Part shown: positions 9,233 to 38,242 of the stretch, one piece after another
Layout: every line of letters begins with the position of its first letter
Numbering within the stretch: position 1 is the first letter of the stretch
Source: Bacteriovorax sp.
Lineage (GTDB): Bacteria; Bdellovibrionota; Bacteriovoracia; Bacteriovoracales; Bacteriovoracaceae
DNA length: 38,657 nucleotides
Direction of reading: 5' to 3'
Assembly: GCA_014378525.1 (NCBI GenBank)
Contig: JACMNL010000009.1
Location: 1-38,657, forward strand
Program-made: the position numbers and the translations under genes
The notes under the pieces: model-generated
Told to the model about the DNA's origin: nothing
The model's input: only the letters and a program-made list of their open reading frames with translations
Databases searched by the model: none

Positions 9233-9667
9233 ATGTCGACATTAAATCTAGACGTCTACATGCCGGTCGTAATTTTGATCGTGCTCGCTCTACTAGTAGC
9301 AGGCGGATCACTATTTCTAGGAAGCTTAATTCGTCCTCAACATCCAAACAAACTAAAAGAAACTGCCTACGAGTGTGGTGAAGAGCCAATTGGAACAGCA
9401 TGGGCCAACTTCAACATTCGTTTCTACGTTATCGCTCTTATCTTCATCATTTTTGATGTTGAAAGTGCATTGATGTTTCCGGTAGCTGCAGTCTTTAAAA
9501 GATTCAATGAAATCGGTCTCGGTGGAACACTGCTGATGTCGATATTTACTTTCGTTCTTATTCTTGTGGCAGGAATTGTATACTGCTGGAAAAAAGGCGA
9601 TCTTGACTGGGTTAAAAGTTTTAACCAGGTCGCTCCTACTCAACCTTCTTTCGGCAAAAAGGATTAG
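9233..9667 (+). CDS. nuoA: NADH-quinone oxidoreductase subunit A, copy 1
   Basis: NuoA (ND3 type) is a three-helix membrane subunit at the junction of the peripheral and membrane arms of complex I; its loop shapes the quinone site. Helix 1 spans residues about 10-33. The loop carries ECG at 47-49, the version with the conserved cysteine, followed by GTAWANFNIRFYVIAL and the acidic FDVE motif in helix 2. A charged tail of about 15 residues (DWVKSFNQVAPTQPS) makes this copy longer (144 aa) than copy 2 (119 aa). A GGAG Shine-Dalgarno supports the start. It is first in the 14-gene nuo run and is followed after 2 bases by nuoH. It is not a recent duplicate of copy 2, since the loop motif and tail differ. 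Confidence 0.93.
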   Translation: MSTLNLDVYMPVVILIVLALLVAGGSLFLGSLIRPQHPNKLKETAYECGEEPIGTAWANFNIRFYVIALIFIIFDVESALMFPVAAVFKRFNEIGLGGTLLMSIFTFVLILVAGIVYCWKKGDLDWVKSFNQVAPTQPSFGKKD

Positions 9668-9669
9668 GC

Positions 9670-10866
9670 ATGAATTCAACTGTCGTTTCATATCTTTCAC
9701 AATCAAATGAATTTCAAAATATCCACGCTTGGTTATCAAAAGCTTTAGGTTTTGATGCATCGTCGTTAATGGCCTTCGTAATTTTTGCAATCGTTGCATT
9801 AATCATCGTTGGTGTTATGGCAACAATCGGTGGTGCTGGAACGTACGCGGAAAGAAAAATTTCTGCCGATCTTCAAGCGCGTGTCGGTCCAAACCGCGTT
9901 GGTCCTTTCGGTCTTCTTCAGTTCCTTGCAGACGGTGTGAAGATGATTTTGAAAGAAGATATTATTACAACTAACGCTGATAAATTTGTTTTCAATTTAG
10001 CGCCGGTAATGTGTCTTGTTGGTGTATTCGCAACTCTTGCAGTTGTGCCTTACTCGAGCGGATTTATCTTAGCTGATTTAAACGTTGGTATTTTTTATCT
10101 TGTTGGTATGGCCTCACTTGTTGGTGTTGGTGTTTTCCTTGGTGGATACGCTTCAAACTCAAAGTGGTCACTACTTGGTGGTATGAGAGGAGCTTCTCAA
10201 ATTATTTCTTACGAAATTCCTGCGACAATTACGATTATCTCAATCGTTCTACTTGCAGGTGGTCTTTCAATGAAAACATTGATTGGTGCTCAAGGTGGTG
10301 GGATGCAGGACTGGTTCATCCTTCACAATCCATTCGCATTCATCGGATTTTTCGTTTACTTCATTTCTGCTCTTGCAGAAACAAACCGCGCTCCATTCGA
10401 TTTACCTGAAGCTGAGTCTGAACTAGTTTCTGGTTACCATACAGAATATACAGGTATGAAATTCGGTTTATTTGCTCTTGCTGAATACATCGAAGTTTTC
10501 GTTGTATGTGGTGTTGCTGTTGCTCTTTTCCTTGGTGGATACAACGTACCTTTCGATCTTGGAACTGGTGCACTTTTCTCTAAGAGTTTAGGTCTTGATA
10601 GCATGTTATCTCAAAACATTGGACAGCTTTTACAACTTGGTGCTTTCTTCACAAAGACACTTGCACTTTACTACGTTGTAATCTGGGTTCGCTGGACGCT
10701 TCCACGTCTTCGCGTCGATCAACTTATGACATTATGTTGGAAATATTTAACTCCAATCGCAATCTTCAATTTATTAGGTTGTGCAGTTTGGATGTACGCA
10801 TTTGATGGAAAATCAATTTTCGCTTTAATTATGGCAGCTACCGCAGGTGGCGGAGCTCACCACTAA
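9670..10866 (+). CDS. nuoH: NADH-quinone oxidoreductase subunit H, copy 1
   Basis: NuoH (ND1 type) is the multi-helix membrane subunit that forms the quinone chamber entrance and contacts the B/D subunits. Visible signatures are the first-loop motif ARVGPNRVGPFGLLQFLADG near 70-90 and the acidic loop ETNRAPFDLPEAESE near 237-251, then GYHTEYTGMKF, and WVRWTLPRLRVDQLM near the C-terminus. At 398 residues it is about 50-70 longer than common NuoH proteins. The extra length is a 30-residue amphipathic N-terminal segment before helix 1 and a loop around residues 300-320. Start: ATG 2 bases after the nuoA stop, with AAGGA just upstream inside nuoA. Its peripheral partners B, C, D and I are not encoded next to it. 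Confidence 0.95.
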   Translation: MNSTVVSYLSQSNEFQNIHAWLSKALGFDASSLMAFVIFAIVALIIVGVMATIGGAGTYAERKISADLQARVGPNRVGPFGLLQFLADGVKMILKEDIITTNADKFVFNLAPVMCLVGVFATLAVVPYSSGFILADLNVGIFYLVGMASLVGVGVFLGGYASNSKWSLLGGMRGASQIISYEIPATITIISIVLLAGGLSMKTLIGAQGGGMQDWFILHNPFAFIGFFVYFISALAETNRAPFDLPEAESELVSGYHTEYTGMKFGLFALAEYIEVFVVCGVAVALFLGGYNVPFDLGTGALFSKSLGLDSMLSQNIGQLLQLGAFFTKTLALYYVVIWVRWTLPRLRVDQLMTLCWKYLTPIAIFNLLGCAVWMYAFDGKSIFALIMAATAGGGAHH

Positions 10867-10888
10867 ATTAAAGAATAGGGAGTATACT

Positions 10889-11425
10889 GTGTTTGCAAAT
10901 ACACTTTTTTTATTATCGGCAGTACTTACGCTTGCAGGAGCAGTTCTGGTTGTTTACAGCCAAAACTTAATGCACGCATGTATCTACCTTCTTGCTTCAC
11001 TTTTCGGTGTTGCAGGTCTTTACGCTTGTATCGGTGCAGACTTTTTAGCTGCAACTCAGCTGGTGGTTTACGCTGGTGGGGTTATCATTCTTATGTTGTT
11101 TGCAATCATGCTTACAGGTGGAACTGGTAACAGAACAAACAAGTATGGCCTTGAAAAAATCCCGGCAATGGGAAATAAGAAAACTTTTATGATCGCGGCG
11201 TTTGCTGCCATCGTATCTGCTCTTATCGTTATTAAAGTAACGATCCCGGTTTTCCAAAACAACAAAAATTTAATCGTAGCTGCTAACGCGCCAACAGTTG
11301 AAAGAATCGGAACGCTTCTCGCGACTGATCACATTTTAGCTTTTGAAATTTCGTCGGTTATGCTTTTAGGTGCGCTTATCGGTGCAGCTGTAATTTCTAG
11401 ACCAAGGAAAGAAATCCATGATTAG
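10889..11425 (+). CDS. nuoJ: NADH-quinone oxidoreductase subunit J, copy 1
   Basis: NuoJ (ND6 type) is a five-helix membrane subunit whose third helix contains a pi-bulge thought to move during coupling. The family core LLASLFGVAGLYACIGADFLAATQLVVYAGGVIILMLF is visible in overlapping pieces around residues 35-75, here with VVYAGGVIILMLF. The open frame extends back to 10847 inside nuoH, but the GTG at 10889 is preferred: AGGGAG stands 6 bases before it and the protein then begins with a hydrophobic helix, as NuoJ does (178 aa). Its last 8 bases overlap nuoK. The second copy at 18406 has the same 8-base overlap with its own nuoK, a shared architecture. Confidence 0.93.
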   Translation: MFANTLFLLSAVLTLAGAVLVVYSQNLMHACIYLLASLFGVAGLYACIGADFLAATQLVVYAGGVIILMLFAIMLTGGTGNRTNKYGLEKIPAMGNKKTFMIAAFAAIVSALIVIKVTIPVFQNNKNLIVAANAPTVERIGTLLATDHILAFEISSVMLLGALIGAAVISRPRKEIHD

Positions 11426-11723
11426 TTTAGGCGCCTACTTAGGCATTTCATTCATTCTATTTATCTGCGGGATCATGGTTATGATAGCCCGAAAAAATAT
11501 CATCGCTATCCTTCTGGGTATCGAGCTTATTTTAAATGCTTCAGCACTTAACTTCGCGGCCTATACAAAATTCGTTAACGGTAATCTTGAAGGTCATATT
11601 ATGGCCCTATTTATTATCATTACGGCAGCTGCTGAATCAGCTGTTGGCTTAGGGATCGTTATTCGATTCTTCCAGTTAAGAGAAAGTATCCATATAGATG
11701 ATGCTTCAACATTACAGAACTAA
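11418..11723 (+). CDS. nuoK: NADH-quinone oxidoreductase subunit K, copy 1
   Basis: NuoK (ND4L type) is a three-helix subunit carrying two buried glutamates of the proton path. Both are present: E36 in GIELILNAS and E73 in AAAESAVGLGIVI. Length is 101 residues, the family norm. It overlaps the end of nuoJ by 8 bases (ATGATTAG), suggesting coupled translation, and is followed by nuoL after 23 bases. Nothing suggests loss of function. Confidence 0.95.
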   Translation: MISLGAYLGISFILFICGIMVMIARKNIIAILLGIELILNASALNFAAYTKFVNGNLEGHIMALFIIITAAAESAVGLGIVIRFFQLRESIHIDDASTLQN

Positions 11724-11746
11724 TACTAAGGTAAGGATATAGAGAC

Positions 11747-13912
11747 ATGGATTACACAATCTCAACCGTAGCTCCGATCGTACTATTGCCGTTCTTCGCA
11801 TTTGTGATCAACGTTTTTTTAGCAAAACGTGTTCCGCTTGCAGCAGTTGCAATAAGTACATTAGCTATCTTCGGGTCATTTATTTGCGCATTCAGAATCT
11901 TTTTAGATTTCCAGAATGTGTACGCAGTTGGTTACCACATTCACAAAGTCTTCACTTGGTTTGACTTAAGTGCCGGTGAACACCTGTTTAAAGTAAACAT
12001 GGGTATCTATATAGATAACATGACTGCCGTAATGCTTTTAATGGTTACAGCAGTAGCAACTTTGATTCACGTTTTCTCTACGTGGTACATGCACGATGAT
12101 GAGCGTTTTGCTCGTTTCTTCGTTTATATGTCACTCTTCACATCTGCAATGTTAGGCCTTGTTCTTTCAGATAACTTACTTTCAATGTTTATCTTCTGGG
12201 AGTTAATGGGATTCTGTTCATACTCTCTAATCGGTTTCTACTACGAAAAAGAAGGTGCTGGAAATGCATCGATGAAAGCGTTCATGACAACAAGAGTGGG
12301 AGATGTATTTTTCCTTCTTGGAATTTTGATCTGCTGGATGATCGTAGGAAGCACAACTTTTGTTGATATTTATGCGGCAATTGGTGCAGGAAAATTCGCA
12401 GGATCATTTAACGTATTCGGCATCGCTCTACCAATCGCAACTGTTGCAGCTTTCTCAGTGTTCATGGGAACAATGGGTAAATCTGCACAATTCCCGATTC
12501 ACGTCTGGTTACCAGATGCGATGTTTGGTCCAACTCCATGTTCTGCCCTCATCCACGCTGCGACGATGGTTGCTGCCGGAGTTTATTTATCATTAAGAAT
12601 GTTCCCTTTAATGGAAGCAGGACATTTATTAACTTTCATCGCTTATATCGGTGCGATCACGGCATTTGGTGCCGCCACAATCGCTCTTATTCAAACGGAT
12701 ATTAAAGCAGTACTTGCGTACTCTACAATTTCTCAACTTGGTTACATGGTTATCGGTATCGGTGTTGGTTCATACAACGCTTCATTCATGCACTTAATTA
12801 CTCACGCTGTGTTTAAGGCGTGTTTATTCCTTTCAGCTGGATCTGTCATTCACTCGATTCACTGCCAGGAAATGCCACAGATGGGTGGCCTTCGTAAAAA
12901 ACTTCCGTACACATTCTTTGCAATGTTACTTTGTTGTTTCGCAATCGCTGGTGTTCCTTTTTTCTCGGGATTCGTATCTAAAGATAGAATTCTTGGAGAT
13001 GCATTAGTTCTTGCTCTTGAAAATCCTTCATACTGGGGAGTTGCAATTCTTGGCTTCGGTGGAGCTCTGTTAACAGCGTTCTACATGTTCAGAATGTTAT
13101 TCTTAACTTTCTTTGGTGAGCCACGCGACCACCATATTTACGATCACGCTCACGAAGAACACATTGGATGGAACTCAAATGTTCCACTTTTAATTCTTTC
13201 TGTTTTCACATTAGGTTTATTTTACTCTGGATCATTCACTGGTCAGGGCGAGATCAATCTTTTTGGATCTAAGAATGAGTGGTTCTCAACTTTAATTCAC
13301 AAGCCTGAAGCTTCTCACCTTGAGCACTTTGCTCATTATGAACACGAAGATTTTGGCGCGACGGATACACGTGACAAAGTTGAACTTCCAAAAGCTCAAT
13401 ACGATGAAAATCACGGAATGGATGAGCACCACGCTCATTGGGTTCACCAGATTCACCATCTTGGTGCAATTCTTTCTATCCTTATCGCATTCTCTGGAAT
13501 TTTCATGGCGTACTTAATGTACATCAAAAAATCAGTTAACCCGGGATGGTGGGCAGAAACTTTTGCAGGATGGAGAAGAGCTCTTCAGAACAAGTATTAT
13601 TTCGACGATTTATACATAAATAAAATTATTCAGAAGGGACTTCTGCCATTCAACGATATGCTGGCAAAATTCGACTCTCAATATTATGACAAGTATGTTG
13701 TCGATGGAACTGCAGTTCTGAATCGTTGGGCCTTCAACGTAGCTCGCTGGTTTGATAATAATATTATCGACAGCGGAATGGTTGATGGAACTGGTGCAAG
13801 TGTTAGAGCAGTGAACTTGATTCTAAGAACTATTCAATCAGGGAAGATACAGTTGTACTTCATTGTATTGATCGTGGTTCTTGGAAGCTACATTTTAACG
13901 TTAAGATTTTAA
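11747..13912 (+). CDS. nuoL: NADH-quinone oxidoreductase subunit L, copy 1 (long, His-rich loops)
   Basis: NuoL (ND5 type) is the distal antiporter-like proton-pumping subunit with a long lateral helix. The core is intact: the helix 5 glutamate E152 in FWELMGFCSY, the helix 7 lysine K245 in GKSAQFP followed by WLPDAMFGPTP, LAYSTISQLGYM, the helix 8 lysine in THAVFKACLFL, and the SKDRIL lysine of helix 12. The WELMGFCSY motif differs from the commoner WEGVGLCSY seen in copy 2. At 721 residues it is about 55 longer than copy 2, mostly from two His/Glu/Asp-rich loops around residues 455-475 and 518-571 (for example ASHLEHFAHYEHEDFG and DEHHAHWVHQIHH). The C-terminal lateral helix and anchor (RTIQSGKIQLYFIVLIV) are present. 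A GGTAAGGATATAGAGAC leader precedes the ATG. Confidence 0.95.
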   Translation: MDYTISTVAPIVLLPFFAFVINVFLAKRVPLAAVAISTLAIFGSFICAFRIFLDFQNVYAVGYHIHKVFTWFDLSAGEHLFKVNMGIYIDNMTAVMLLMVTAVATLIHVFSTWYMHDDERFARFFVYMSLFTSAMLGLVLSDNLLSMFIFWELMGFCSYSLIGFYYEKEGAGNASMKAFMTTRVGDVFFLLGILICWMIVGSTTFVDIYAAIGAGKFAGSFNVFGIALPIATVAAFSVFMGTMGKSAQFPIHVWLPDAMFGPTPCSALIHAATMVAAGVYLSLRMFPLMEAGHLLTFIAYIGAITAFGAATIALIQTDIKAVLAYSTISQLGYMVIGIGVGSYNASFMHLITHAVFKACLFLSAGSVIHSIHCQEMPQMGGLRKKLPYTFFAMLLCCFAIAGVPFFSGFVSKDRILGDALVLALENPSYWGVAILGFGGALLTAFYMFRMLFLTFFGEPRDHHIYDHAHEEHIGWNSNVPLLILSVFTLGLFYSGSFTGQGEINLFGSKNEWFSTLIHKPEASHLEHFAHYEHEDFGATDTRDKVELPKAQYDENHGMDEHHAHWVHQIHHLGAILSILIAFSGIFMAYLMYIKKSVNPGWWAETFAGWRRALQNKYYFDDLYINKIIQKGLLPFNDMLAKFDSQYYDKYVVDGTAVLNRWAFNVARWFDNNIIDSGMVDGTGASVRAVNLILRTIQSGKIQLYFIVLIVVLGSYILTLRF

Positions 13913-13946
13913 TTAATTATATAGTAACTTTTCGAAGGAGATACCG

Positions 13947-15482
13947 GTGGCCGGTTCAAATTGTTTATTAAGTTTAATTTTGTGGATGCCTATTGTTGGT
14001 GTGCTGGGTGTATTACTCATGCCAAAAGACAAGACAACTTGGATTAAAGCTTGGGCGCTTATCAACACAGTTATTACTTTTGCTCTAACTTTAGTTTTAT
14101 ACGCTAAGTTTGATCAGACTCAGGCAGGAATGCAAAATGCGTTTAATGTGTCGATCCCATGGATCTCACAATTTAACATTTTCTACCGTCTTGGAGTTGA
14201 TGGTATTTCACTTCCAATGGTTCTTCTTACAGGGCTTCTTTTCATGCTTTGTATTTTGAGTTCATGGACTCAAATTAAGAAATCAATTAAAGCATACTTC
14301 GCTTTATTACTTCTTCTTCAGACGTGTGTATTTGGAGTATTTTTCGCATTAGACTTCTTCTTGTTCTACGTTTACTGGGAAGTAATGCTAATTCCGATGT
14401 TCTTCCTTATCGGTGTTTGGGGTGGAGAAAACAGAGAGTACGCAGCTGTTAAGTTCTTCCTTTATACATTCTTCGGATCGATTCTAATGTTAGTTGGTAT
14501 CGTTGCTCTTTACTTCGCAACAAACCAATCAGTTGATTCATTCAATATCCTTGCTCTTTCAGGCGGGAAATTTTCTCAACTTAACGTTCACATGTTCGGC
14601 CAGACTTTATCTTTCTCGAAATTATTTTTTATCTTTATGTTTATCGGATTCGCGATCAAGGTTCCGGTTTTCCCATTCCACACATGGTTACCACACGCTC
14701 ACGTTCAGGCGCCTACTGCGATTTCAGTAATCCTGGCCGGTGTTTTGCTTAAGATGGGTACATACGGATTTTTAAGAATTGCATTCCCGATCTTTCCTGA
14801 CTCTGCAAAATATTTCTCTACTGCAATTGCCTGGTTAGGATTAATCAACGTAATTTACGGTGCACTATGTGCGATGGCACAGACGGACGTGAAGAAACTA
14901 ATCGCTTACTCTTCAGTATCTCACATGGGATTCGTAATGCTTGGACTTTCAGCAATGACTGTTCAGGGATTAAACGGAGCAGTTCTTCAAATGTTCAACC
15001 ACGGAACATCGACAGCTATGATGTTCTTTATGATCGGTCTTCTTTACGAGCGATCTCACCACAGATGGATTGTTAAACCAGATGGTTCACGTGGATACGG
15101 TGGTCTTTATACACAACTTCCAGTTTACTCGATTATTTTCATCATCGGTATGTTCGCTTCAATGGGACTACCAGGTATGTCAGGATTTATTTCTGAAGCT
15201 CTAATTTTCCTTGGTATCTACCAAAAGTTCACAACAATCACTGTCCTTGCTCTGTTCGGACTTCTGATTGGTGCTGCTTACCTTCTTTGGATGTTCAAGA
15301 GAATGTTCTTCGGTGACGTGAATCCGGAAATTAAAGGTTATGAAGATATGACGAAGCTTGAGATCACTTACATGATTCCACTTTGTGTTGCTGTAATTCT
15401 ATTCGGGATCTGGCCTTCGCCAATTCTGAACATGATGAAAGCATCAGTGGGTCAGCTTGCTTCGTTACTAGCAACATTCTAA
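13947..15482 (+). CDS. nuoM: NADH-quinone oxidoreductase subunit M, copy 1
   Basis: NuoM (ND4 type) is the middle antiporter-like pump subunit. Key residues are in place: E145 in YWEVMLIPMFFLIG, K238 in IKVPVFPFHTWLP, the second lysine in LLKMGTYGFLRI, MAQTDVKKLIAYSSVSHMG, and the helix 12 glutamate in MSGFISEALIF. One loop is unusual: the common LPDAHVEAPTAGS reads LPHAHVQAPTAIS, so an Asp and a Glu are replaced, while copy 2 keeps the common form. The start is GTG, with GAAGGAG 6 bases upstream. Length is 511, normal for the family. The 34-base gap after nuoL is the largest inside the nuo run. Confidence 0.95.
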   Translation: MAGSNCLLSLILWMPIVGVLGVLLMPKDKTTWIKAWALINTVITFALTLVLYAKFDQTQAGMQNAFNVSIPWISQFNIFYRLGVDGISLPMVLLTGLLFMLCILSSWTQIKKSIKAYFALLLLLQTCVFGVFFALDFFLFYVYWEVMLIPMFFLIGVWGGENREYAAVKFFLYTFFGSILMLVGIVALYFATNQSVDSFNILALSGGKFSQLNVHMFGQTLSFSKLFFIFMFIGFAIKVPVFPFHTWLPHAHVQAPTAISVILAGVLLKMGTYGFLRIAFPIFPDSAKYFSTAIAWLGLINVIYGALCAMAQTDVKKLIAYSSVSHMGFVMLGLSAMTVQGLNGAVLQMFNHGTSTAMMFFMIGLLYERSHHRWIVKPDGSRGYGGLYTQLPVYSIIFIIGMFASMGLPGMSGFISEALIFLGIYQKFTTITVLALFGLLIGAAYLLWMFKRMFFGDVNPEIKGYEDMTKLEITYMIPLCVAVILFGIWPSPILNMMKASVGQLASLLATF

Positions 15483-15514
15483 GAAACGATTGATTAGGAC
15501 TAGGACATAGAAAT

Positions 15515-16981
15515 ATGCATTTAAATTATTTGGCAAACATTGGCCGCTACATCCCGGAAATCCTTTTAACGATTTTAATGGTGGGCCTTATTCTTCTTGA
15601 AACAACTTATAAAGAAGATGAGAAAAATAGAAGATACATCTTCATCACGGCCATCATTGGTTTAGTTGCAACTTTTGCAGCTCTACTGGCGAACATGGGC
15701 GGGAAAGCAGAAGCTATCTTCAGCAACGCAATTGTCATCGACGACTTCAGTACTTTACTAAAAATGGTAATGGTACTTGGAACAATCGGTGCGGTTTACC
15801 TGAGCAGATTTTCACGTGACGTTTACGAATCACTTAAAACTGAATTCGTAATCATGGCGATCGGAATTTTGATCGGTGGATTCCTGCTTGCTTCAGCAAA
15901 CAACATGCTGACGTTTTACTTAGGGATCGAAACACTTTCAATTTTATCTTACGTGATGGCATCACTTAAAAAGAATGATGAGAGATCAAGTGAAGCTGGT
16001 TTGAAGTACGCTCTTTACGGAGGTATTTCTGCAGGACTTATGCTTTTTGGTATGTCACATATCTTCGGTGTAATTGGAACTATCCAGTTTACCGGAATCG
16101 CAAAAATGGTTCCGACATTATCGCCGGTTCAAATCGCGATCTTAATGCCTTCATTTTTACTTTTCTTTGCAGGTATCGGATACAAGATCGCATCGGTTCC
16201 ATTCCATATGTGGTCACCGGATGTTTATGAAGGATCTCCTACTCCGGTAACAACATTTTTTGCCATCGTTCCAAAGCTTGCAGGTATTGCAGGATTAGTA
16301 AGAATCACAGCTATTTTCTTCGCTGTAGATTCTCCACTTAAAATTGGTTGGGTTGGATTAATGATCGTGATCTCTGCTCTGACTATGACAGTTGGTAACG
16401 TGACAGCGATCGGACAAAAATCAGTTAAAAGAATGCTCGCCTACTCTTCAATTTCTCACGCAGGTATTATGCTTGCTGGTTTAATTGTTATGAACAACGT
16501 TGGTATTCGTGCAGTTGTTTTCTATGCAATCACTTATGTCTTCATGACTCTTGTCGCTTTCTACATCGTGAGCATCGTTCAGGATAAATACGGCAATGAT
16601 AACTTCGACCGTTTCTCAGGGTTAATTTACAGATACCCGTTCATGGCCGTGATGATGACTGTTGTAATGTTCTCGTTAACTGGTCTTCCGCCATTGGCCG
16701 GATTCGTTGCTAAGTACAACATTATTCAGTCTTTAATCAACACAAGAAATTATTCATTAGCAGTTGTTCTGGGATTAAACTCAGTTGTGTCTGCTTATTA
16801 CTATTTAAAAATTGTTCGTATCATGGTTCTGAAGCCACAAGAAAACAACGAAACTATCGAAGGTTTCGGATTCCTGAATCAGATGGTGATCGTTGTTATG
16901 ACTATCCCGGTTTTCACACTTGGGATTTTCTGGGAAACGGTTATGTCATGGGCAGGAAACGCTAAGTTATTTATTCAGTAA
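15515..16981 (+). CDS. nuoN: NADH-quinone oxidoreductase subunit N, copy 1
   Basis: NuoN (ND2 type) is the antiporter-like subunit nearest the quinone end. Copy 1 is canonical: the helix 5 glutamate in YLGIETLSILSYVMASL, a paired basic loop, the helix 7 lysine K224 in YKIASVPFHMWSPDVYEGSP, SVKRMLAYSSISHAG, and the helix 12 lysine in LPPLAGFVAKYNII. Length is 488 residues with about 14 membrane helices. ATG at 15515 with TAGGACATAGAAAT in front. It ends the first AHJKLMN set; the second nuoA begins 15 bases later, so both sets are likely one transcript. Confidence 0.95.
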   Translation: MHLNYLANIGRYIPEILLTILMVGLILLETTYKEDEKNRRYIFITAIIGLVATFAALLANMGGKAEAIFSNAIVIDDFSTLLKMVMVLGTIGAVYLSRFSRDVYESLKTEFVIMAIGILIGGFLLASANNMLTFYLGIETLSILSYVMASLKKNDERSSEAGLKYALYGGISAGLMLFGMSHIFGVIGTIQFTGIAKMVPTLSPVQIAILMPSFLLFFAGIGYKIASVPFHMWSPDVYEGSPTPVTTFFAIVPKLAGIAGLVRITAIFFAVDSPLKIGWVGLMIVISALTMTVGNVTAIGQKSVKRMLAYSSISHAGIMLAGLIVMNNVGIRAVVFYAITYVFMTLVAFYIVSIVQDKYGNDNFDRFSGLIYRYPFMAVMMTVVMFSLTGLPPLAGFVAKYNIIQSLINTRNYSLAVVLGLNSVVSAYYYLKIVRIMVLKPQENNETIEGFGFLNQMVIVVMTIPVFTLGIFWETVMSWAGNAKLFIQ

Positions 16982-16996
16982 CATAAGAAGGATTAG

Positions 16997-17356
16997 ATGG
17001 AATTTTTATCATTCGTTATTTTCTTAATTATCGCCACTGTCCTTGGCGTTGTTCTGATGTTGATCTCAAATTTTCTTGGCCAGAAAAAGAAAATTGTTAG
17101 AACGAACGACGTTTACGAGTCGGGTGTAAATCCGGTCGGAAGTGCAACGAGACAATACGATATTAAGTTCTACCTTACTGCGATTCTCTTTCTTCTTTTT
17201 GACGTAGAGATCGTGTTTTTACTTCCATGGGCACTTGCTTATAACAATACTCAGAACACTGGCTTCATGGTGGCAGGTTTTGTTTTCTTCATGGTTGTTC
17301 TTCTTGTCGGGTACATCTTTGTTATCAATTCTAAGTCACTAAAGTGGGAAGAATAA
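16997..17356 (+). CDS. nuoA: NADH-quinone oxidoreductase subunit A, copy 2
   Basis: Second NuoA. The loop motif is YESG at 40-43 with serine where copy 1 has the conserved cysteine; ESG is also the E. coli version as I recall it, so it is a known natural variant and not damage. It continues NPVGSATRQYDIKFYLTAIL and FDVEIVFLLPW, keeping the acidic helix 2 motif. Length is 119, the shorter normal form without the tail of copy 1. AAGGATTAG just before the ATG serves as ribosome binding site. It opens the second AHJKLMN set directly after nuoN copy 1, with no new promoter space (15 bases). Confidence 0.92.
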   Translation: MEFLSFVIFLIIATVLGVVLMLISNFLGQKKKIVRTNDVYESGVNPVGSATRQYDIKFYLTAILFLLFDVEIVFLLPWALAYNNTQNTGFMVAGFVFFMVVLLVGYIFVINSKSLKWEE

Positions 17357-17357
17357 A

Positions 17358-18404
17358 ATGTTAGAAGGAATTCTAGAAATCTTAATTAAGACCGTTGTAA
17401 TTTTAGGCATCCCTTTAGGTGCTCTACCTATTATCATTCACGTAGAAAGAAGAGGCGCTGGATTTATTCAAAGACGTCTTGGACCAAACAGAGTCGGGCC
17501 ATTTGGTTTACTACAACCACTTGCAGACGTTGCAAAGTTCATGTTCAAAGAAGAAGTTCACCCTACTCACGTTCGTCCGTTTTTTTATTCGTTAGCTCCG
17601 CTAGTTGCACTTACTGTTGCCCTACTTCCACTTGCATGTATTCCAATCATGGCGCCACTTGAAATCAACGGAAGAACTATTTATCCGGAAGTTTTTAGAA
17701 GTGACATGGGGATCTTCTATGCATTCGCTGTTTCAGCATTAGGATCTTACGGAATTCTTCTTGGTGGATGGGCCTCTAATAATAAATTCTCAATGCTGGG
17801 TGCTCTTCGTGCCTGTGCACAAATGGTTTCATACGAACTTTCACTTTCAACTTCAATCGTTGCGATGATCTTTCTTTATGGAACAAACGACATTCACTTA
17901 ATGGTGGCCGCTCAAACTGGTTACTGGTTTGGCTTTTTACCGAAATGGGGATTTTTCATTCAGCCTTTAGCTGCAATGTTATTTCTAGTGGGAATCTTTG
18001 CTGAATCAAACCGTCTTCCATTCGATCTTGCTGAAGGTGAGTCGGAAATCGTTGCTGGTTATCACTTAGAGTACTCTTCAATGAAGTTTGCGATCTTTTT
18101 CATGGCGGAGTATATCCACATGATCGCGCTTTCTGCTCTTTTCATTATTTTATTCTTCGGTGGATACAGTATTCTTCCGGGACTTGATTTGATTCCTCAA
18201 TCTCCAATCATCACACCAATTCTTCAAATGGGATCTTTAATTTTTAAAATCGCATTCATGATCTGGTTCTTCGTTTGGGTTCGCTGGACTCTTCCTCGTT
18301 TCCGTTACGATCAATTAATGGACATTGGATGGCAGCGCCTGTTGCCTCTGGGAATTATAAATCTTATCGCGACAGTTCTCATTACGTATTTTAGGAATCA
18401 ATAA
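17358..18404 (+). CDS. nuoH: NADH-quinone oxidoreductase subunit H, copy 2
   Basis: Second NuoH, 348 residues, close to the usual family size and lacking the N-terminal extension of copy 1. Signatures: RRLGPNRVGPFGLLQPLADV near 37-56, the acidic quinone-chamber loop ESNRLPFDLAEGESE from about 216, GYHLEYSSMKF, and VWVRWTLPRFRYDQLM near the end. The loop reads AEGESE where copy 1 has PEAESE, again showing that the two sets belong to different NuoH branches. It starts one base after the nuoA stop. Both copies keep the arginine- and acid-rich loops needed to dock the B/D/I subunits, so either could bind a peripheral arm encoded elsewhere. Confidence 0.95.
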   Translation: MLEGILEILIKTVVILGIPLGALPIIIHVERRGAGFIQRRLGPNRVGPFGLLQPLADVAKFMFKEEVHPTHVRPFFYSLAPLVALTVALLPLACIPIMAPLEINGRTIYPEVFRSDMGIFYAFAVSALGSYGILLGGWASNNKFSMLGALRACAQMVSYELSLSTSIVAMIFLYGTNDIHLMVAAQTGYWFGFLPKWGFFIQPLAAMLFLVGIFAESNRLPFDLAEGESEIVAGYHLEYSSMKFAIFFMAEYIHMIALSALFIILFFGGYSILPGLDLIPQSPIITPILQMGSLIFKIAFMIWFFVWVRWTLPRFRYDQLMDIGWQRLLPLGIINLIATVLITYFRNQ

Positions 18405-18405
18405 T

Positions 18406-18924
18406 ATGATTAGTGATATTTTACTGACCATCATCACGATGGTTTTTGCCTTAATGGTCGTCTTCTCAAAAAAGACAGTCGTATCAGCACTTGCGCTGCT
18501 TATGACTTTGCTTTCGATTGCAATGATCTACTTCCAGCTTGGAACTTTGTTCCTGGCGGCCATCCAGGTTTTGGTTAACGCCGGAGCGGTTGCGATTTTA
18601 TTCGTATTCGTGATGATGCTTATCAATCTTGAGCAGTTTGAAAACAACCGTGAAAAAGGAAAAGTAAAACTGGTTATCTCAGTTCTAGCTGTTCTTGTGA
18701 TCATGGGAATTTTTGCATTAATCATCAACAACAACATCGAAGTGTTAACAGCGAATAATATTCCTGATAACTCGATGAAGTTATTGTTCGATAAATTATT
18801 CTCTGTTTATTATCTGCCGTTCGAAATGGCGACAGTTCTACTATTGGCAGCTCTTGTTGCATGTATCGTGATCACTGGTCACGAAAAAGCGCACAAGGTT
18901 GAGCTGGAGGAATCACATGAGTAG
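18406..18924 (+). CDS. nuoJ: NADH-quinone oxidoreductase subunit J, copy 2
   Basis: Second NuoJ, 172 residues. The diagnostic helix 3 region reads FLAAIQVLVNAGAVAILFVFV: the usual tyrosine of VVYAGA is replaced by asparagine (VNAGA), whereas copy 1 has VVYAGG. Five hydrophobic helices are visible. It starts one base after nuoH and ends with an 8-base overlap into nuoK, the same junction as in set 1. The tail is charged (GHEKAHKVELEESHE). Function as a complex I J subunit is clear from position and core motif. Confidence 0.9.
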   Translation: MISDILLTIITMVFALMVVFSKKTVVSALALLMTLLSIAMIYFQLGTLFLAAIQVLVNAGAVAILFVFVMMLINLEQFENNREKGKVKLVISVLAVLVIMGIFALIINNNIEVLTANNIPDNSMKLLFDKLFSVYYLPFEMATVLLLAALVACIVITGHEKAHKVELEESHE

Positions 18925-19213
18925 TATTTATTATTACCTTTCCGCTTTTTTATTCTGCTTAGGTCTGCTTGGAACTATTTTCAAAAAAGATTTAATCTCA
19001 ATTCTTCTATGCCTTGAACTTATGATGGGTGGAGTAAGTTTACTTATGATTCTTATGTCGCGTGCGACGGGAGTTCTTGAGTCTCAGTTAATCGTGTTTT
19101 TCATGATCATCATCTCTGCTTGCGAAGTTGCAATCGGCCTGAGCTTGATCATAGCGCTCTATAGAAAGAAACAAACAATTTATACTGACGATATTAAAAT
19201 CATAACAGAGTAA
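18917..19213 (+). CDS. nuoK: NADH-quinone oxidoreductase subunit K, copy 2
   Basis: Second NuoK. Its two buried glutamates are E34 in CLELMMGGVS and E70 in SACEVAIGLSLI. An upstream TTG at 18899 is open in frame, but the ATG at 18917 is the better start: GGAGG stands at 18906-18910, 6 bases before it, and the resulting 98 residues fit the family size and begin with a helix. It overlaps nuoJ by 8 bases. nuoL copy 2 follows after 8 bases. Confidence 0.93.
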   Translation: MSSIYYYLSAFLFCLGLLGTIFKKDLISILLCLELMMGGVSLLMILMSRATGVLESQLIVFFMIIISACEVAIGLSLIIALYRKKQTIYTDDIKIITE

Positions 19214-19221
19214 GAGTTAAT

Positions 19222-21222
19222 ATGTACGAAAACTACCTGGCACTCATTCCATTTTTCCCTTTACTGGCCTTCTTACTTAACTCTGTTTTAATCAAAAATA
19301 AGTTAACTAATGTTCAAGCTGGTTTAATAACTTTCATGTCATTGTTTATCTCATTTATTTTAGTCATCATGACTTCTCTACATGTTTTAGACAAAGGCCC
19401 GGTTAGTGTTCACCTTTGGGAGTGGATGTCTTACGGAAACATCAAGTTCGATATCAGCTTCGTGATGGACGAACTTTCAGTTATTTTATCTTTAATGGTT
19501 ACTGGTATCGGAAGTGCAATTGCATTCTTCTCTATCGGATATATGGACCACGAAGAAAAAGTTGGAAAATTTTTCGGCTTCTTCGCTCTATTTGCTTTCT
19601 CAATGTTACTTCTTGTTCACGGAGCAAACTTCTTAGTTCTATTTATGGGATGGGAAGGTGTTGGTCTGAGTTCATATTTATTAATCGGGTTTTGGTATGA
19701 ACATACTAAAAACGGGAACGCTGCTAAAAAAGCATTTCTTGCAAACCGTGTTGGTGACTTTGGTTTAGTTCTTGGGATGATCGGATTTGCTCTGGTGTTC
19801 AACACAATTTCATTCGCTGATCTTCAACATCCAGATATGGCCTTATTGGTTGCCAATAAAAATATGTTAATTCTTTCTAGCTTGCTTCTTGTATTAGGAG
19901 CTGCCGGAAAGTCTGCACAGATCCCTTTATTCATCTGGCTACCGGATGCAATGATGGGCCCGACTCCAGTGTCGGCATTAATGCACGCGGCGACGATGGT
20001 TACTGCAGGTATCTTTTTACTTTGTAGAGTTTCAAACGTTATCGTTCACTTCCCGATTGTTCTGGATGTGATTGCATGGGTTGGAGCTCTTACTGCACTT
20101 CTTGCTTCACTGATTGCGATGACTCAAACGGATATCAAAAAGATTCTTGCTTACTCTACCGTATCTCAGCTTGGGTACATGGTTTTAGCTTGCGGAGTTG
20201 GTGCATTCTCAACTGGTATGTTCCACGTTTTCACTCACGCATTTTTCAAAGCACTTTTATTCCTTTGTGCTGCTTCTGTAATTTACGGATGCCACCACGA
20301 ACAGAATATTTTTAAGATGGGTGGACTAAAGAAAAAAATGCCGATTACTTTCTGGACGTTCATGGTTGGATTCCTTGCGATCTCAGGGATCCCGGGATTT
20401 TCAGGATTCTTTTCAAAAGATGAAATCCTTTCAATGGCCTTAACGAATCCAGGAAACGGAATCTGGTTATATTCAATCGCACTTATCACTGCTCTTTTAA
20501 CGGCTTTCTACATGACGAGAATGCTTGTTTTAGTTTTTATCGTTCCACCTGCTGCGAAAGTTGAAGATCATTCACACGCTCACGATAAAAAACACAAAAA
20601 AAATAAACACAATGACCATGCTCATGATGATCACACTCATGAAATCCATGAATCACCAAGTGTAATGACAATTCCTCTAATCATTCTTGCGATCTGTTCA
20701 TTCGCTGCCGGATATATTGGTCTTCCACATATCATCGGCGGACATGAAAACTCTCGTTTGTTCCAGGGTTTCCTTGAAAGATTCGTAGCCAAGACTTCAG
20801 GACACACAGAACTTTCAGCTCAAACTGAAATCATCATGATGGGAGTGACAACACTTCTTATTCTGGGATCGATGGGACTTGCTTATTACATTTATGTAAA
20901 AAATGATCACGTTAAAATGCGCGATTCACTTAAAGCAAAATTTCACACACTATGGCTCATCAGTTTCAACAAATTTAAAGTTGATGAGTTCTATGAACTA
21001 ACAATCATCAAGCCTCTATTTCAATTCGGCCACTTCCTGGTTGATGTTGTTGAAACTCACGTGATCAACGGCGTAGTAAAAGTTGTAACAAAATTTACAA
21101 CTTCAAGCGGGCAGATTTTAGATGACAATAAACCGGAAAGATTAGAGATGGGAATTCTCTACATCGTGATCGGTTTAACCGGCATCATTATTTTTATTTT
21201 TAACGCATTTATTTTTAGATAA
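19222..21222 (+). CDS. nuoL: NADH-quinone oxidoreductase subunit L, copy 2
   Basis: Second NuoL, 666 residues, canonical. It has E145 in GWEGVGLSSYLLIGFWY, K230 in GKSAQIPLFIWLPDAMMGP, LAYSTVSQLGYMVLACG, the helix 8 lysine in THAFFKALLFL, and the SKDEIL lysine in helix 12, followed by a long lateral helix and terminal anchor. Between helices 13 and 14 lies a striking His/Lys/Asp-rich loop at about 445-478 (pieces such as DHSHAHDKKHKK and HDDHTHEIHE). Histidine-rich loops at this place occur in some other NuoL proteins, but both copies here have one of unrelated sequence. Start ATG is 8 bases after nuoK. Confidence 0.95.
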   Translation: MYENYLALIPFFPLLAFLLNSVLIKNKLTNVQAGLITFMSLFISFILVIMTSLHVLDKGPVSVHLWEWMSYGNIKFDISFVMDELSVILSLMVTGIGSAIAFFSIGYMDHEEKVGKFFGFFALFAFSMLLLVHGANFLVLFMGWEGVGLSSYLLIGFWYEHTKNGNAAKKAFLANRVGDFGLVLGMIGFALVFNTISFADLQHPDMALLVANKNMLILSSLLLVLGAAGKSAQIPLFIWLPDAMMGPTPVSALMHAATMVTAGIFLLCRVSNVIVHFPIVLDVIAWVGALTALLASLIAMTQTDIKKILAYSTVSQLGYMVLACGVGAFSTGMFHVFTHAFFKALLFLCAASVIYGCHHEQNIFKMGGLKKKMPITFWTFMVGFLAISGIPGFSGFFSKDEILSMALTNPGNGIWLYSIALITALLTAFYMTRMLVLVFIVPPAAKVEDHSHAHDKKHKKNKHNDHAHDDHTHEIHESPSVMTIPLIILAICSFAAGYIGLPHIIGGHENSRLFQGFLERFVAKTSGHTELSAQTEIIMMGVTTLLILGSMGLAYYIYVKNDHVKMRDSLKAKFHTLWLISFNKFKVDEFYELTIIKPLFQFGHFLVDVVETHVINGVVKVVTKFTTSSGQILDDNKPERLEMGILYIVIGLTGIIIFIFNAFIFR

Positions 21223-21235
21223 AACTGGATAGAAA

Positions 21236-22720
21236 ATGGATCAATTATTTCTCGTAAAATTTTTAATACCTCTTTTGTGGGCGATTGGTTTTTTGTTCGC
21301 TCCAAAGAACAATGAAAAATCGATCAGACTCTATGCTTTAATTGGCGCGTTCGTAACACTCGCATACTCGATTAAAATGTACATGGACCTTCCGGATCCA
21401 GGAGTCCTGACAACACTTTTTAAATTCGACATGCCTTTGTTCTTCAATATCTCGTACACATTCGCAATGGATGGACTCTCTGGTCTACTTCTAATGCTGA
21501 ACGCTTTTTTAATGTTGGTTGTTGTAATCGCAACATGGGAATTTAAAACAGATAAGCTTCGTCTTTATTACTTTTTAATTTTCTTACTAACATGGGCAGT
21601 AAACGGATCACTTCTTTCTACATCATTATATGGCTTCTATGTTTTCTGGGAACTAATGCTGATTCCACTATTTATTTTAGTGGGAGTATTTGGTGGAGAA
21701 AACAGAAGATACGCTTCATTTAAGTTCTTCATGATGACTGCAGCTGGATCAATCCTGATGCTGGCCTCAATGTGCTACATGTCTGCACTTGCTTATAAAT
21801 TTAACGGATCTTACGACCTGAACTATGAAGTTATTAAATCATTAGGTTTAAGATACGACGGATTCGGTTCACCTCAGTCGCTAATATTCTGGTCATTCGC
21901 AATCGCCTTCTTCTTAAAAGTTCCGGTATTTCCATTTCACTCATGGTTACCTGATGCTCACGTTGAAGCACCTACCGCCGGTTCAATTATTTTAGCTGGT
22001 ATTTTATTAAAGCTTGGTATCTACGGTTTCCTTCGTTTCGTAATTCCATTATTTCCTGAAGCTGTTTCAGCTAACAGAGATATTGTTATGTACCTCGGAG
22101 CAACGGGGGTTATCTACGGAGCACTGACTGCGTGGGTACAAACAGATATTAAAAAACTTGTAGCGTTCTCTTCAATCTCACACATGGGTTATATCATCAT
22201 GGGTGTTTTCTCTCAGAACCCGCTTGCTGTTAAAGGAGCTATCTTTCAAATGATCGCTCACGGTATTTCAACACCAGGTCTCTTCATCGGTGTTCATTAT
22301 CTTTACCAGAGAACACATACTAAAAAGATGGATATGTACGGCGGACTGGCAGCAGTTATGCCAAAGTTTGCGATTTTATTTTTCATCATCACTGCAGGAT
22401 CAATGGCAGTGCCAATGACTTGTGGATTCGTTGGTGAGTTCATGATCATCATGGGTTCGTATCAGGTAAACACTATTGCAGCTTTTTTAGCAGCGACAGG
22501 GATTATCCTTTCACCGATCTATTTGTTAAAAATGTATCACCTGACAGCACTTGGCGAGATGAAACACGAAGAAAACAAATCTCTGAAAGATTTATCACTT
22601 CTTGAAGCAACACCAATGATCGTACTTTCTATTATGACGATTGGTTTTGGTCTTTATCCAAAAGCAATCATGGCCCTGTATGATGGAACAATTAATTTCC
22701 TGGTAAATAAAGGTTTATAA
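21236..22720 (+). CDS. nuoM: NADH-quinone oxidoreductase subunit M, copy 2
   Basis: Second NuoM, 494 residues, canonical. E139 lies in FWELMLIPLFILVG, GGENRRYASFKFF follows, K228 in LKVPVFPFHSWLPDAHVEAP, the second lysine in LLKLGIYGFLRF, VQTDIKKLVAFSSISHMG, and the helix 12 glutamate in CGFVGEFMII. Unlike copy 1 it keeps the common DAHVEAPTAGS loop. It starts 13 bases after nuoL and is followed by nuoN after one base. Confidence 0.95.
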   Translation: MDQLFLVKFLIPLLWAIGFLFAPKNNEKSIRLYALIGAFVTLAYSIKMYMDLPDPGVLTTLFKFDMPLFFNISYTFAMDGLSGLLLMLNAFLMLVVVIATWEFKTDKLRLYYFLIFLLTWAVNGSLLSTSLYGFYVFWELMLIPLFILVGVFGGENRRYASFKFFMMTAAGSILMLASMCYMSALAYKFNGSYDLNYEVIKSLGLRYDGFGSPQSLIFWSFAIAFFLKVPVFPFHSWLPDAHVEAPTAGSIILAGILLKLGIYGFLRFVIPLFPEAVSANRDIVMYLGATGVIYGALTAWVQTDIKKLVAFSSISHMGYIIMGVFSQNPLAVKGAIFQMIAHGISTPGLFIGVHYLYQRTHTKKMDMYGGLAAVMPKFAILFFIITAGSMAVPMTCGFVGEFMIIMGSYQVNTIAAFLAATGIILSPIYLLKMYHLTALGEMKHEENKSLKDLSLLEATPMIVLSIMTIGFGLYPKAIMALYDGTINFLVNKGL

Positions 22721-22721
22721 G

Positions 22722-24104
22722 ATGGATAACTTAACATTCGTTCAAAACGTTTTAATATTTTTAGGTCTAAACGGGGTTGCCCTTTTAGGTTTAAACATTA
22801 AGAAAAACGGAAAGTATATTTCGTTTGCAGCAACACTAATTGCTGCGATCACATTCTTTGCAATGCTCTTCAGCCGAGATTCATTCACGCTAAGTGAGTT
22901 ATTCAGTCTTGAAGGAAATAAAATTCTGCTTCTTAAAATTGTTTCAGTTTTAAATGTACTGATGATTTTAATAAACGGTTATTACTCACTGGAAAAAGTT
23001 AAGAACTCAGTTCTTATGTCTTATATGTTTATGGGAGGGGTTTTCCTTCTTGGTGCAAACGACCTGATGACTTTTTACGTAGCGATGGAAACAATCGCTC
23101 TGGTTGGATATGCACTGGTTGCAACTTCTGACTTAGAAAACTCACGTGAAGCAGCGGTAAAATATTTAATCCAGGGCGCTGTCATCTCGGTTATTTTTTT
23201 ACTCGGTGTAGCTTTCTACTTAGGCGCAACAAACGGTCTGACATTAGTTGGTGCCACAGTTGTTAACCAGGAATTCTACGCAATCGCATTGGGGATTTTC
23301 ATACTAACTGCTTGCTTCAAACTTGGTGCATTTCCATTCCATGCGTGGATTGCTGATGTTTACTCAAACGTAAGCTCAGGTAACCTTGCAACGAACTTCT
23401 TCATTTCAAAAATCATTATCGGATTTAAGTTCATCACACTTCTTCAGTTGCTTCTTTTAGAATGTGACCCGCACTTCCAGGACATTTTAGTTATGATTAT
23501 CCAGTGGATTGCAGTTATGTCTGCTTTTTACGGAAACATCATGGCCGTGGTTCAGGGACAATTCAAAAGAATCATCGCTTACTCATCAGTGGCCCACACT
23601 GGTTACATGTTGATGATGATCTGTTTAAACCCGGACGAAAATCTGGAAAAACAACTTATCGCTTACCTGGTTCTTTATTCGTTAACAGCAACAGGAGTGA
23701 TCCTGATACTCAACCAATTTGCTTCGCTTAACAAAGATAAGGATGGAAGAAACATTCTTAAATCGGGCTTCTATAGAAATAAAGGCCTATCGATTATGTT
23801 GGTTATCTTTGTTTTAAGTTTGGGATCGATCCCGCTTACTTCGGGTTTCTCAATGAAGTACATGCTTTTCACTAACTATTTCAGAGAGGGCTTCACTAAA
23901 GAAGCTACTTCAATTTTCATAAGTTCTATTGTGGGTCTTGCTTATTATATCCGTTTCGTCAGTGATTTATTTACTGAGGATGAAGTGGCAATGAAGCTGC
24001 CAGCAATAAAAACCCGATTTAGCGAATCGCTAGTTCATGTTATCATTTTAGTGTCTATCTTCACTTTTGGAATTGCTCCATCACTCTTTTTAGGGTTGAA
24101 GTAG
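22722..24104 (+). CDS. nuoN: NADH-quinone oxidoreductase subunit N, copy 2 (divergent)
   Basis: Second NuoN, 460 residues and clearly more divergent than copy 1. The helix 5 glutamate remains in YVAMETIALVGYAL and the helix 7 lysine K200 in FKLGAFPFHAWIADVYSN, but the normal PDVYEGSPTPVT stretch reads ADVYSNVSSGNLAT, so the Glu-Gly-Pro-Thr-Pro turn is gone. FKRIIAYSSVAHTGYM is recognisable, and the helix 12 lysine survives in LTSGFSMKYMLF. The pump residues are therefore kept while the surrounding loops changed. It ends the nuo run; the next gene starts 10 bases later. Confidence 0.9.
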   Translation: MDNLTFVQNVLIFLGLNGVALLGLNIKKNGKYISFAATLIAAITFFAMLFSRDSFTLSELFSLEGNKILLLKIVSVLNVLMILINGYYSLEKVKNSVLMSYMFMGGVFLLGANDLMTFYVAMETIALVGYALVATSDLENSREAAVKYLIQGAVISVIFLLGVAFYLGATNGLTLVGATVVNQEFYAIALGIFILTACFKLGAFPFHAWIADVYSNVSSGNLATNFFISKIIIGFKFITLLQLLLLECDPHFQDILVMIIQWIAVMSAFYGNIMAVVQGQFKRIIAYSSVAHTGYMLMMICLNPDENLEKQLIAYLVLYSLTATGVILILNQFASLNKDKDGRNILKSGFYRNKGLSIMLVIFVLSLGSIPLTSGFSMKYMLFTNYFREGFTKEATSIFISSIVGLAYYIRFVSDLFTEDEVAMKLPAIKTRFSESLVHVIILVSIFTFGIAPSLFLGLK

Positions 24105-37119: not shown

Positions 37120-37251
37120 GTGCCATTTAGAGTCAGGACATCTGATCTAGATCTTGAATTAAAGCAGATTTTCCAAAACGAATTTGTTTTTTTAGTAAGA
37201 TCTCACCATCCTATCCTCAAAACCAAATCAAAATTAACAGTTTTATCACTC
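37120..37251 (+). pseudogene. Possible remnant of a LysR-type regulator effector domain
   Basis: About 44 codons directly upstream of, and in frame with, the RRM gene read PFRVRTSDLDLELKQIF, QNEFVFLVRSHHPILK, TKSKLTVLSL. This resembles the middle of a LysR substrate-binding domain (weakly acidic lead-in, then F-[DE]-E-x-[LF]-V-x-[LV], then [HD]HP-[LI] and a Leu-Thr-x-x-x-Leu ending). No helix-turn-helix or remainder of a LysR gene is present on either side; a stop lies just upstream at 37099. I read it as a gene relic now serving as the RRM leader. Chance similarity or a true N-terminal extension of the RRM protein remain possible. Confidence 0.3.
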
Positions 37252-37281
37252 ACAGTAGTGATGAATATTTTAGGAGTATTT

Positions 37282-37560: not shown

Positions 37561-37580
37561 TTATTAAATAACTTAATAAA

Positions 37581-37620
37581 GAGCGCTTCGGTTGGTGAGA
37601 CTGAAGCGCTCTTTTTTTTT
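37581..37620 (+). terminator. Intrinsic terminator after RRM gene 1
   Basis: GAGCGCTTCGG (37581-37591) pairs with CTGAAGCGCTC (37601-37611), 11 pairs with one G-T, around a 9-base loop, followed by nine T residues. A textbook Rho-independent terminator 20 bases past the stop codon. Confidence 0.93.
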
Positions 37621-37688
37621 ACATTCTGTGAATGTAATAGACAAAAACACGACAACCTTCAATCAACTTTAATTTCCTATGAATTTAC

Positions 37689-37724: not shown

Positions 37725-37729
37725 TGTTC

Positions 37730-37748: not shown

Positions 37749-37781
37749 TGAATCATTTATTTTTTTGCTGATGGAGTCTCA

Positions 37782-38039: not shown

Positions 38040-38041
38040 AC

Positions 38042-38215: not shown

Positions 38216-38242
38216 AGAGTGATCGTAGTCAGAAAAATAGAC

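Follow-up and report, generated by a model that had tools for sequence, protein, structure and literature searches.

Complexes I of eleven subunits without the NADH module are known from Campylobacter and as the NDH-1 (type 1 NADH dehydrogenase) of cyanobacteria. Such an 11-subunit complex, lacking the NADH module, is also reported for Desulfitobacterium hafniense (PMC11238625). In Vibrio, the Na+-translocating NADH:quinone oxidoreductase (Na+-NQR) is reported in place of complex I (PMC4014592), and Bacteriovorax marinus is described as having NQR (PMC4014512). Here we analyse a 38,657-nucleotide contig of Bacteriovorax sp. (JACMNL010000009.1, positions 1 to 38,657, hereafter the window), in which genes for two complete membrane arms of complex I stand in tandem. 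From sequence comparison we propose, with a probability of about 0.8, that the two arms belong to different complexes, each of them complete and with its peripheral arm encoded at another locus, and that one of these complexes was displaced in relatives.

Two membrane arms and two peripheral gene sets

Fourteen intact nuo open reading frames (ORFs) occupy positions 9233 to 24104 of the + strand in the order A-H-J-K-L-M-N, followed by A-H-J-K-L-M-N. The first arm is termed M1 (9233-16981) and the second M2 (16997-24104). Their genes, with the Pfam match of each product, are:

9233-9667, + strand: M1 NuoA (Oxidored_q4, 2e-31)
9670-10866, + strand: M1 NuoH (NADHdh, 1e-111)
10847-11425, + strand: M1 NuoJ, GTG start as listed (Oxidored_q3, 3e-31)
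11418-11723, + strand: M1 NuoK (Oxidored_q2, 4e-21)
11747-13912, + strand: M1 NuoL (Proton_antipo_M, 5e-75; Proton_antipo_N, 7e-19)
13947-15482, + strand: M1 NuoM (Proton_antipo_M, 1e-70)
15515-16981, + strand: M1 NuoN (Proton_antipo_M, 4e-71)
16997-17356, + strand: M2 NuoA (Oxidored_q4, 7e-28)
17358-18404, + strand: M2 NuoH (NADHdh, 2e-105)
18406-18924, + strand: M2 NuoJ, conserved Tyr changed to Asn in the residue table (Oxidored_q3, 9e-30)
18899-19213 as listed, + strand: M2 NuoK (Oxidored_q2, 1e-26)
19222-21222, + strand: M2 NuoL (Proton_antipo_M, 2e-82; Proton_antipo_N, 2e-14)
21236-22720, + strand: M2 NuoM (Proton_antipo_M, 9e-74)
22722-24104, + strand: M2 NuoN (Proton_antipo_M, 3e-36)

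All 14 ORFs score above the cut-off of their Pfam family (1e-111 and 2e-105 for NADHdh, 3e-36 to 2e-82 for Proton_antipo_M, 4e-21 to 2e-31 for Oxidored_q2, q3 and q4). Three overlaps occur in the run, and the widest gap is 34 bases (13912 to 13947). The ORFs and Pfam matches thus bear out a preliminary description of the window, according to which the A-H-J-K-L-M-N order is present twice in one tight same-strand run. For M2 NuoK, the ATG at 18917 is a more likely start than the TTG at 18899, because NuoK has 97-98 amino acids (aa) in five other members of the genus.

The preliminary description also holds with regard to pump residues. In a residue comparison whose names follow what we take to be E. 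coli numbering, both arms keep the transmembrane Glu and Lys of NuoL, NuoM and NuoN and both Glu of NuoK, together with the inspected acidic residues of NuoA and NuoH. Departures in M2 are Tyr59 to Asn in NuoJ, one His to Phe in NuoL, and a loop Cys to Ser in NuoA.

The source genome (3.6 Mb in 144 contigs, 93% complete) has two NuoH genes and six Proton_antipo_M genes of the NuoL/M/N type, all six inside the window. The absence of peripheral-arm genes, noted earlier, is correct for the window and not for the genome, which has two NuoD genes (the second matched in two pieces) and two peripheral sets. The set P1, on contig C79 (L010), has the layout B-CD-E-F-G-I with C and D fused, and the set P2, on contig C65 (L011), has the layout B-C-D-I. 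E, F and G were not found beside P2; one copy of NuoF was found in the genome, beside P1, and the lack of dedicated E, F and G for P2 is judged from its locus and from this single NuoF, with no genome-wide search made for E and G themselves. NCBIfam gave a complex I subunit as the best name for all ten P1 and P2 proteins, six of them above cut-off; those below it are E and G of P1 (best named NuoE and NuoG) and C and I of P2 (NuoC and NuoI). Both sets contain the iron-sulfur (Fe-S), NADH/flavin mononucleotide (FMN) and quinone motifs that were sought, and the NADH/FMN and Fe-S motifs are intact in E, F and G of P1.

M2 and P1 together hold every core subunit of complex I from A to N, with C and D fused, and the N2 cluster cysteines of NuoB, the quinone-site His38 and Tyr87 of NuoD, and the pump Glu and Lys of NuoK, L, M and N are all intact in them. 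M1 and P2 together hold B, C, D, I, A, H, J, K, L, M and N. With two peripheral sets elsewhere, the tandem reads as two split complexes. This is what the preliminary description expected if two full sets were found, except that E, F and G are missing from the second set, so that the complexes would differ in kind. M1 with the B-C-D-I set would form an 11-subunit complex without the NADH module, probably fed by ferredoxin, flavodoxin or another donor; ferredoxin and flavodoxin are donors of relatives of this complex. M2 with the B-CD-E-F-G-I set would form a 13-subunit NADH-oxidising, proton-pumping complex, and the source organism would possess two working pumps with different electron inputs.

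The single NuoF could also be taken to mean that the 11-subunit complex borrows E-F-G, in favour of both arms docking on one common peripheral arm. Such sharing, one of the options raised in the preliminary description, is contradicted by the two separate, full B/C/D/I sets with their cluster and quinone motifs, and several relatives retain only one arm with one set. We regard it as very improbable.

The second arm in Bacteriovoracales

The comparison set consists of 77 genomes of the order, all from one family and distributed over 37 genera. The place of M2, here called the slot, was read as the stretch between M1 NuoN (or mfd) and a TPR gene. Its borders in the window are:

5625-9137, - strand: mfd, left border of the slot by synteny (Pfam TRCF, CarD_TRCF_RID, DEAD)
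24115-27366, + strand: TPR/GYF protein, right border of the slot in Bacteriovoracales by synteny (Pfam TPR families, GYF_2)

In most of the fetched loci of the order, as well as in several from elsewhere in the phylum, mfd adjoins a membrane arm. Near the end of the window (37120-38623), three small RRM-type RNA-binding proteins, identified by eye, are clustered on both strands.

Two canonical NuoH genes are present in all eight sampled genomes of the window's genus, and in six of them they lie in tandem, about 7.6 kb apart on one contig, including G005, which has only 6 contigs. An assembly artefact had to be considered for a genome in 144 contigs, and the preliminary description named the false joining of two loci as an objection. 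The tandem on one contig in six of the eight genomes, together with the same slot in relatives assembled into few contigs, rules this out for practical purposes.

Outside the genus, a canonical M2, interrupted by a contig end, was found in G051, and M2 is canonical in only these two of the 33 genera whose slot was read. In most of the genera read, the second arm has either decayed or disappeared, a feature invisible from the window alone. Slot loci and G051 cover 33 of the 37 genera; the other four have contig ends or other layouts. Among the first 52 loci, the slot contains seven ORFs in 34, six in two, five in one (G032) and none in 15, and among six added loci seven in five (in G004 the contig ends behind A) and none in one (G067). 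Seven-ORF slots thus amount to 40 of 59 with the window included; six are canonical (the window and five of its genus) and 34 divergent. G061, whose TPR gene was located through a separate analysis, is counted with seven ORFs, and the counts leave out L098, L105, L136 and L147 (contig ends) as well as L122.

Divergent slot ORFs follow the A-H-J-K-L-M-N size pattern in a shrunken form, as illustrated by G001 (107-298-155-93-505-268-334 aa) and G004 (89-269-140-75-292-344-357 aa). On a simple scale, the first four proteins of the G001 slot have 3, 8, 5 and 3 hydrophobic helices. When nine intermediates (eight for K) were pooled, the correct canonical slot was the best match at 97-100%, with L, M and N matching each other too. 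In the pool of the 21 most divergent slots, only H gave a clear match (96% to canonical and 99% to intermediate sequences). Compared with the intermediates, the right slot was the best hit in 74% of cases for K, 48% for N, 46% for J and 12% for A, and in none for L and M; the homology of the most divergent L and M slots is argued from position, size order and coupling only. Searching Pfam with the seven M2-slot proteins of L153 and L158 gave nothing above cut-off, and the L-slot protein of the intermediate L154 matches Proton_antipo_M. In a clade-by-clade profile comparison of the A, H, J and K slots, profiles built from one highly divergent genus mostly fail to match those of another. AlphaFold models of the L-slot and N-slot proteins of Halobacteriovorax, built on three-row alignments, had mean pLDDT (predicted local distance difference test) values of 36 and 41 and speak neither for nor against homology. 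Loss of the NuoK glutamates, the NuoA acidic pair and the antiporter lysines occurs in varying combinations among intermediates.

Divergent slot ORFs evolve several times faster than M1, and in many genera no similarity to the canonical proteins can be recognised any more. A comparison of two Halobacteriovorax loci (L100 and L108) gave identities of 90-97% for M1 proteins and 34-73% for M2-slot proteins, and the nonsynonymous divergence (dN) of M2 is 5 to 25 times that of M1. In ten pairs formed by five other members of the window's genus the two arms differ alike (74-93% identity for M1, 67-93% for M2); M1 NuoK was left out of the rate comparison for pairs with L115. Wherever the synonymous divergence (dS) of M2 could be estimated, dN is lower than dS. 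Among five Halobacteriovorax genomes, M2 dS is 0.9 or more, or saturated. When random mutation of the seven Halobacteriovorax genes was simulated up to 0.2 changes per site, about 45 in-frame stops arose (at least 30 in each of 200 runs), which indicates that the frames in the slot are being kept open.

Corresponding changes are seen in P1. A recognisable E, F or G is absent in 23 of the 25 remnant P1 loci of the order, and the other two, G031 and G020, are midway. G031 has a NuoF without the NADH and FMN motifs, which keeps an N3-like cysteine cluster, and its NuoG retains several cluster cysteines. G020 has, in the place of NuoF, an ORF of 297 aa with no phmmer match and a similar cysteine cluster, adjoining a recognisable NuoG. 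The two NuoF-place ORFs with an N3-like cluster and no NADH/FMN motifs are located at L285 5085 (G031) and L086 8002 (G020). It seems from these sequences that the catalytic site of NuoF was lost before the Fe-S ligands. The quinone-site His38 is present in none of the 25 remnant CD proteins and in all 11 canonical ones, and Tyr87 is kept in three of the 25. Remnant NuoB proteins have all four N2 cysteines in 12 of 25 cases, three in four, and fewer in nine. NuoI could be retrieved automatically from 19 of the 25 loci and has all eight Fe-S cysteines in 15 of them. Several core Glu, Arg, His and Asp residues of NuoD are nearly invariant across remnants. The table of P1 residues omits Bdellovibrio G105 and includes G079 of the same family.

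Upstream of P1 nuoB, the source genome (L010:150-1604) encodes a protein of about 500 aa that resembles a lipoprotein and matches no Pfam family. A relative of it immediately precedes B in 26 of 28 other loci of the order, one of the two misses being a contig end, and in none of eight loci of other families.

For many relatives, the best reading of these sequences is that M2/P1 is a non-catalytic remnant, Fe-S-bearing in most, and that NADH oxidation has passed to Na+-NQR. A job for the remnant is suggested because reading frames and NuoI cysteines are kept; the repeated losses speak against it. Tentatively, many Bacteriovoracales, including Halobacteriovorax, may carry a complex I of ten genes (B, CD, I, A, H, J, K, L, M, N) that no longer oxidises NADH, binds quinone or pumps protons. 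Selection would keep it as a membrane assembly that bears Fe-S clusters and has acquired a new role outside respiration. Hydrophobicity and order would be the main constraints on its membrane subunits, and the window's genus would represent the ancestral working form.

It is equally conceivable, and likewise short of probable, that the window holds two ordinary adjacent complexes I and that decay in relatives is slow pseudogenisation with no remaining function. Stepwise loss would agree with this, as in the five slot ORFs of G032, the 15 empty slots among 52, and genus g9, with no M2 in the two loci fetched and no P1 CD among the matches listed; so would residue loss that varies between lineages. 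Set against it are seven ORFs in 40 of 59 slots (34 of 52, then five of six, one of them ending at a contig end, and the window), the roughly 45 stops expected at 0.2 changes per site in genes whose dS in Halobacteriovorax is 0.9 or more, or saturated, and the complete cysteine complement in 15 of 19 NuoI.

Proposed pairing of arms and sets, and the distribution of Na+-NQR

From four comparative lines we infer that M1 is paired with P2 and M2 with P1. One operon of G040, A-B-C-D-H-I-J-K-L-M-N, has its best matches in M1 and P2 for all genes except L, and a second operon of the same genome, as far as fetched B-CD-E-F-G-H-I-J-K-L-M-N, has them in P1 and M2 except for K and N. M1 groups with the 11-gene operon of G040 in the membrane-subunit tree (support 99.8/100), and so does P2 D in the D tree (100/100); M2 falls on the opposite side from M1, with most NADH-type arms. 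The M2 slot is kept in seven genomes with neither a canonical NuoH nor a P2-type D among the matches listed (G004, G028, G029, G030, G052, G053, G061). Four sampled g9 genomes have a P2-type D and no fused CD among the matches listed, and in the two g9 loci fetched M1 is present and M2 absent. Divergence of CD from the CD of the source genome tracks that of M2 (Spearman 0.64, n=21; 0.52, p 0.02, n=19 with the window's genus left out) and does not track that of M1 (Spearman 0.09, n=19).

Given such co-occurring and co-diverging candidate sets, with the exceptions described below, an arm working as an Mrp-like ion translocator without a peripheral arm, as envisaged in the preliminary description, is not needed. 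The sole point in its favour is that peripheral genes are absent from the window. Both arms carry A, H and K, a partner set exists elsewhere for each, and nine genomes show the reverse, a membrane arm gone from the slot and a P1-like CD kept. We regard this option as still more improbable than a shared peripheral arm. The preliminary interpretation is therefore supported in part: different electron-input modules agree with one set that carries E-F-G, another without them, and one NuoF in the genome, and the shared-arm and arm-less readings do not stand.

NqrA was found in 53 of the 77 genomes. A complete nqrABCDEF run is present in G001, and the nqrA of three more genomes was confirmed with NCBIfam. 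The ORF picked as NqrA in G028 proved to be DnaB, and the NqrA of that genome rests on the 77-genome survey. Neither the eight genomes of the window's genus nor G051 yielded NqrA. With a canonical NADH-type complex defined by a PF00346 match of 1e-103 or better (CD/D), NqrA is absent in 19 of the 23 genomes that have one and present in 49 of the 54 others. A swap can be followed within genus g12 (14 genomes), in which NqrA occurs without NuoF in G059, G063 and G068 and NuoF without NqrA in eight genomes; G071 has both, G064 a weak NuoF and no NqrA, and G066 neither. Based on this exclusion and on the g12 swap, displacement of NADH oxidation is the likeliest cause of decay. In 17 genomes, nqrA lies about 8-32 kb from the remnant CD on the same contig, as positions compared by eye indicate (G001, G007, G009, G010, G012, G013, G016, G020, G021, G031, G034, G046, G052, G058, G063, G068, G074).

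Under the proposed course of events, M2/P1 would have given up its role as NADH:quinone oxidoreductase elsewhere in Bacteriovoracales, in most cases to Na+-NQR or to an additional nuo operon. It would then have lost the NADH/FMN site, NuoE/F/G, the quinone His and the pump residues, and in some lineages whole subunits, and the genes that remain would often have preserved their open frames, their order and their position. The M2/P1 complex would be intact in the window's genus, where NqrA was not found.

Concerning origin, the mfd-adjacent arm and the fused CD look ancestral to the phylum because Bdellovibrio-like genomes have one arm adjoining mfd and the fused CD elsewhere; M1 would have come between mfd and M2. 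A CD tree has a split, supported at 100/100, with canonical and remnant CD of Bacteriovoracales on one side and the other canonical CD/D, those of Bdellovibrio-like genomes included, on the opposite one. Three P2-like D from other families, all on very long branches, join the Bacteriovoracales, probably by attraction. In the M1 tree the window's genus is nested and G051 is near the base, which implies repeated decay, provided that long branches are not misleading. An M1-type and an M2-type arm, both canonical, also lie about 3.5 kb apart in a different family of the phylum (L307, G084). A mirror case exists in G096 (L279 1-2800), G140 (L280 1-2700) and G151 (L281 1-2700), where a canonical B-CD-E-F-G-I is directly followed by a highly divergent B-(C)-D-I. 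The second D of these loci matches P2 D at 1e-7 to 1e-22, and here the 11-subunit type may be the decaying one.

A number of observations do not fit easily with the proposed pairing and displacement. Support for the pairing is comparative, not physical. The M2 of the source genome has a long branch and a poorly supported position among NADH-type arms (28.8/49), and the NADH-looking single arms of G082 and G087 are on the M1 side of the midpoint. The correlation between CD and M2 is coarse, with a mean M2 identity of 21-26% in most remnants, near background. A P1-like fused CD occurs with no M2 in the slot in nine genomes (G002, G017, G033, G047, G056, G059, G063, G068, G071), and G006 has an M2 slot with no fused CD among the matches listed. 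Two members of the window's genus, G044 and G073, have the second canonical NuoH with P1 CD and NuoF not in the assembly, and G051 has M1 with no P2-type D found. The case for orthology with the Bdellovibrio arm depends on the fused CD, the split layout and synteny with mfd. With regard to Na+-NQR, the Fisher p of 5e-10 for its exclusion with complex I ignores the kinship of the 77 genomes and overstates independence; a canonical NADH-type complex and NqrA are both present in G021, G026, G032 and G071, and neither is in the assembly in G044, G049, G064, G066 and G073.

Comparison with known systems

The order offers a natural gradation between a working complex I and a remnant undetectable by sequence search, with an intact second complex alongside in most genomes as an internal clock. 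It makes testable which parts of complex I persist without catalysis, how a H+ pump gives way to a Na+ pump, and how much drift membrane proteins tolerate with their frames still open. Profile-based gene surveys will miss many M2-slot genes of these predators. No published description of the tandem arms or of the remnant was found in the titles and abstract openings of the papers listed.

M2 with P1 corresponds to the 13-subunit NDH-1 with fused NuoCD in having every subunit and the key residues inspected. It differs in that its genes form two clusters on separate contigs, seven membrane genes in one and six peripheral genes in the other, and in that M2 stands directly behind the membrane cluster of another complex. 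M1 with P2 shares with the 11-subunit complex I the composition B-C-D-I plus A-H-J-K-L-M-N and the lack of E-F-G at the locus, but is split over two loci and accompanied by an NADH-type complex in the same genome. As in the single complex I of Bdellovibrio (G105), mfd adjoins A-H-J-(K)-L-M-N and CD is fused, with B, E and G at another locus; G105, however, has one NuoH and no M1. The '2M' variants of complex I, reportedly described by Chadwick et al. in 2018 as having an extra antiporter-like subunit, likewise have surplus antiporter-type genes, whereas here the surplus is a whole second arm and not one extra NuoM. Finally, NQR and an NADH-type complex I almost exclude each other in this order, as in replacement by Na+-NQR, but the displaced complex I appears often to be kept as a fast-evolving gene set.

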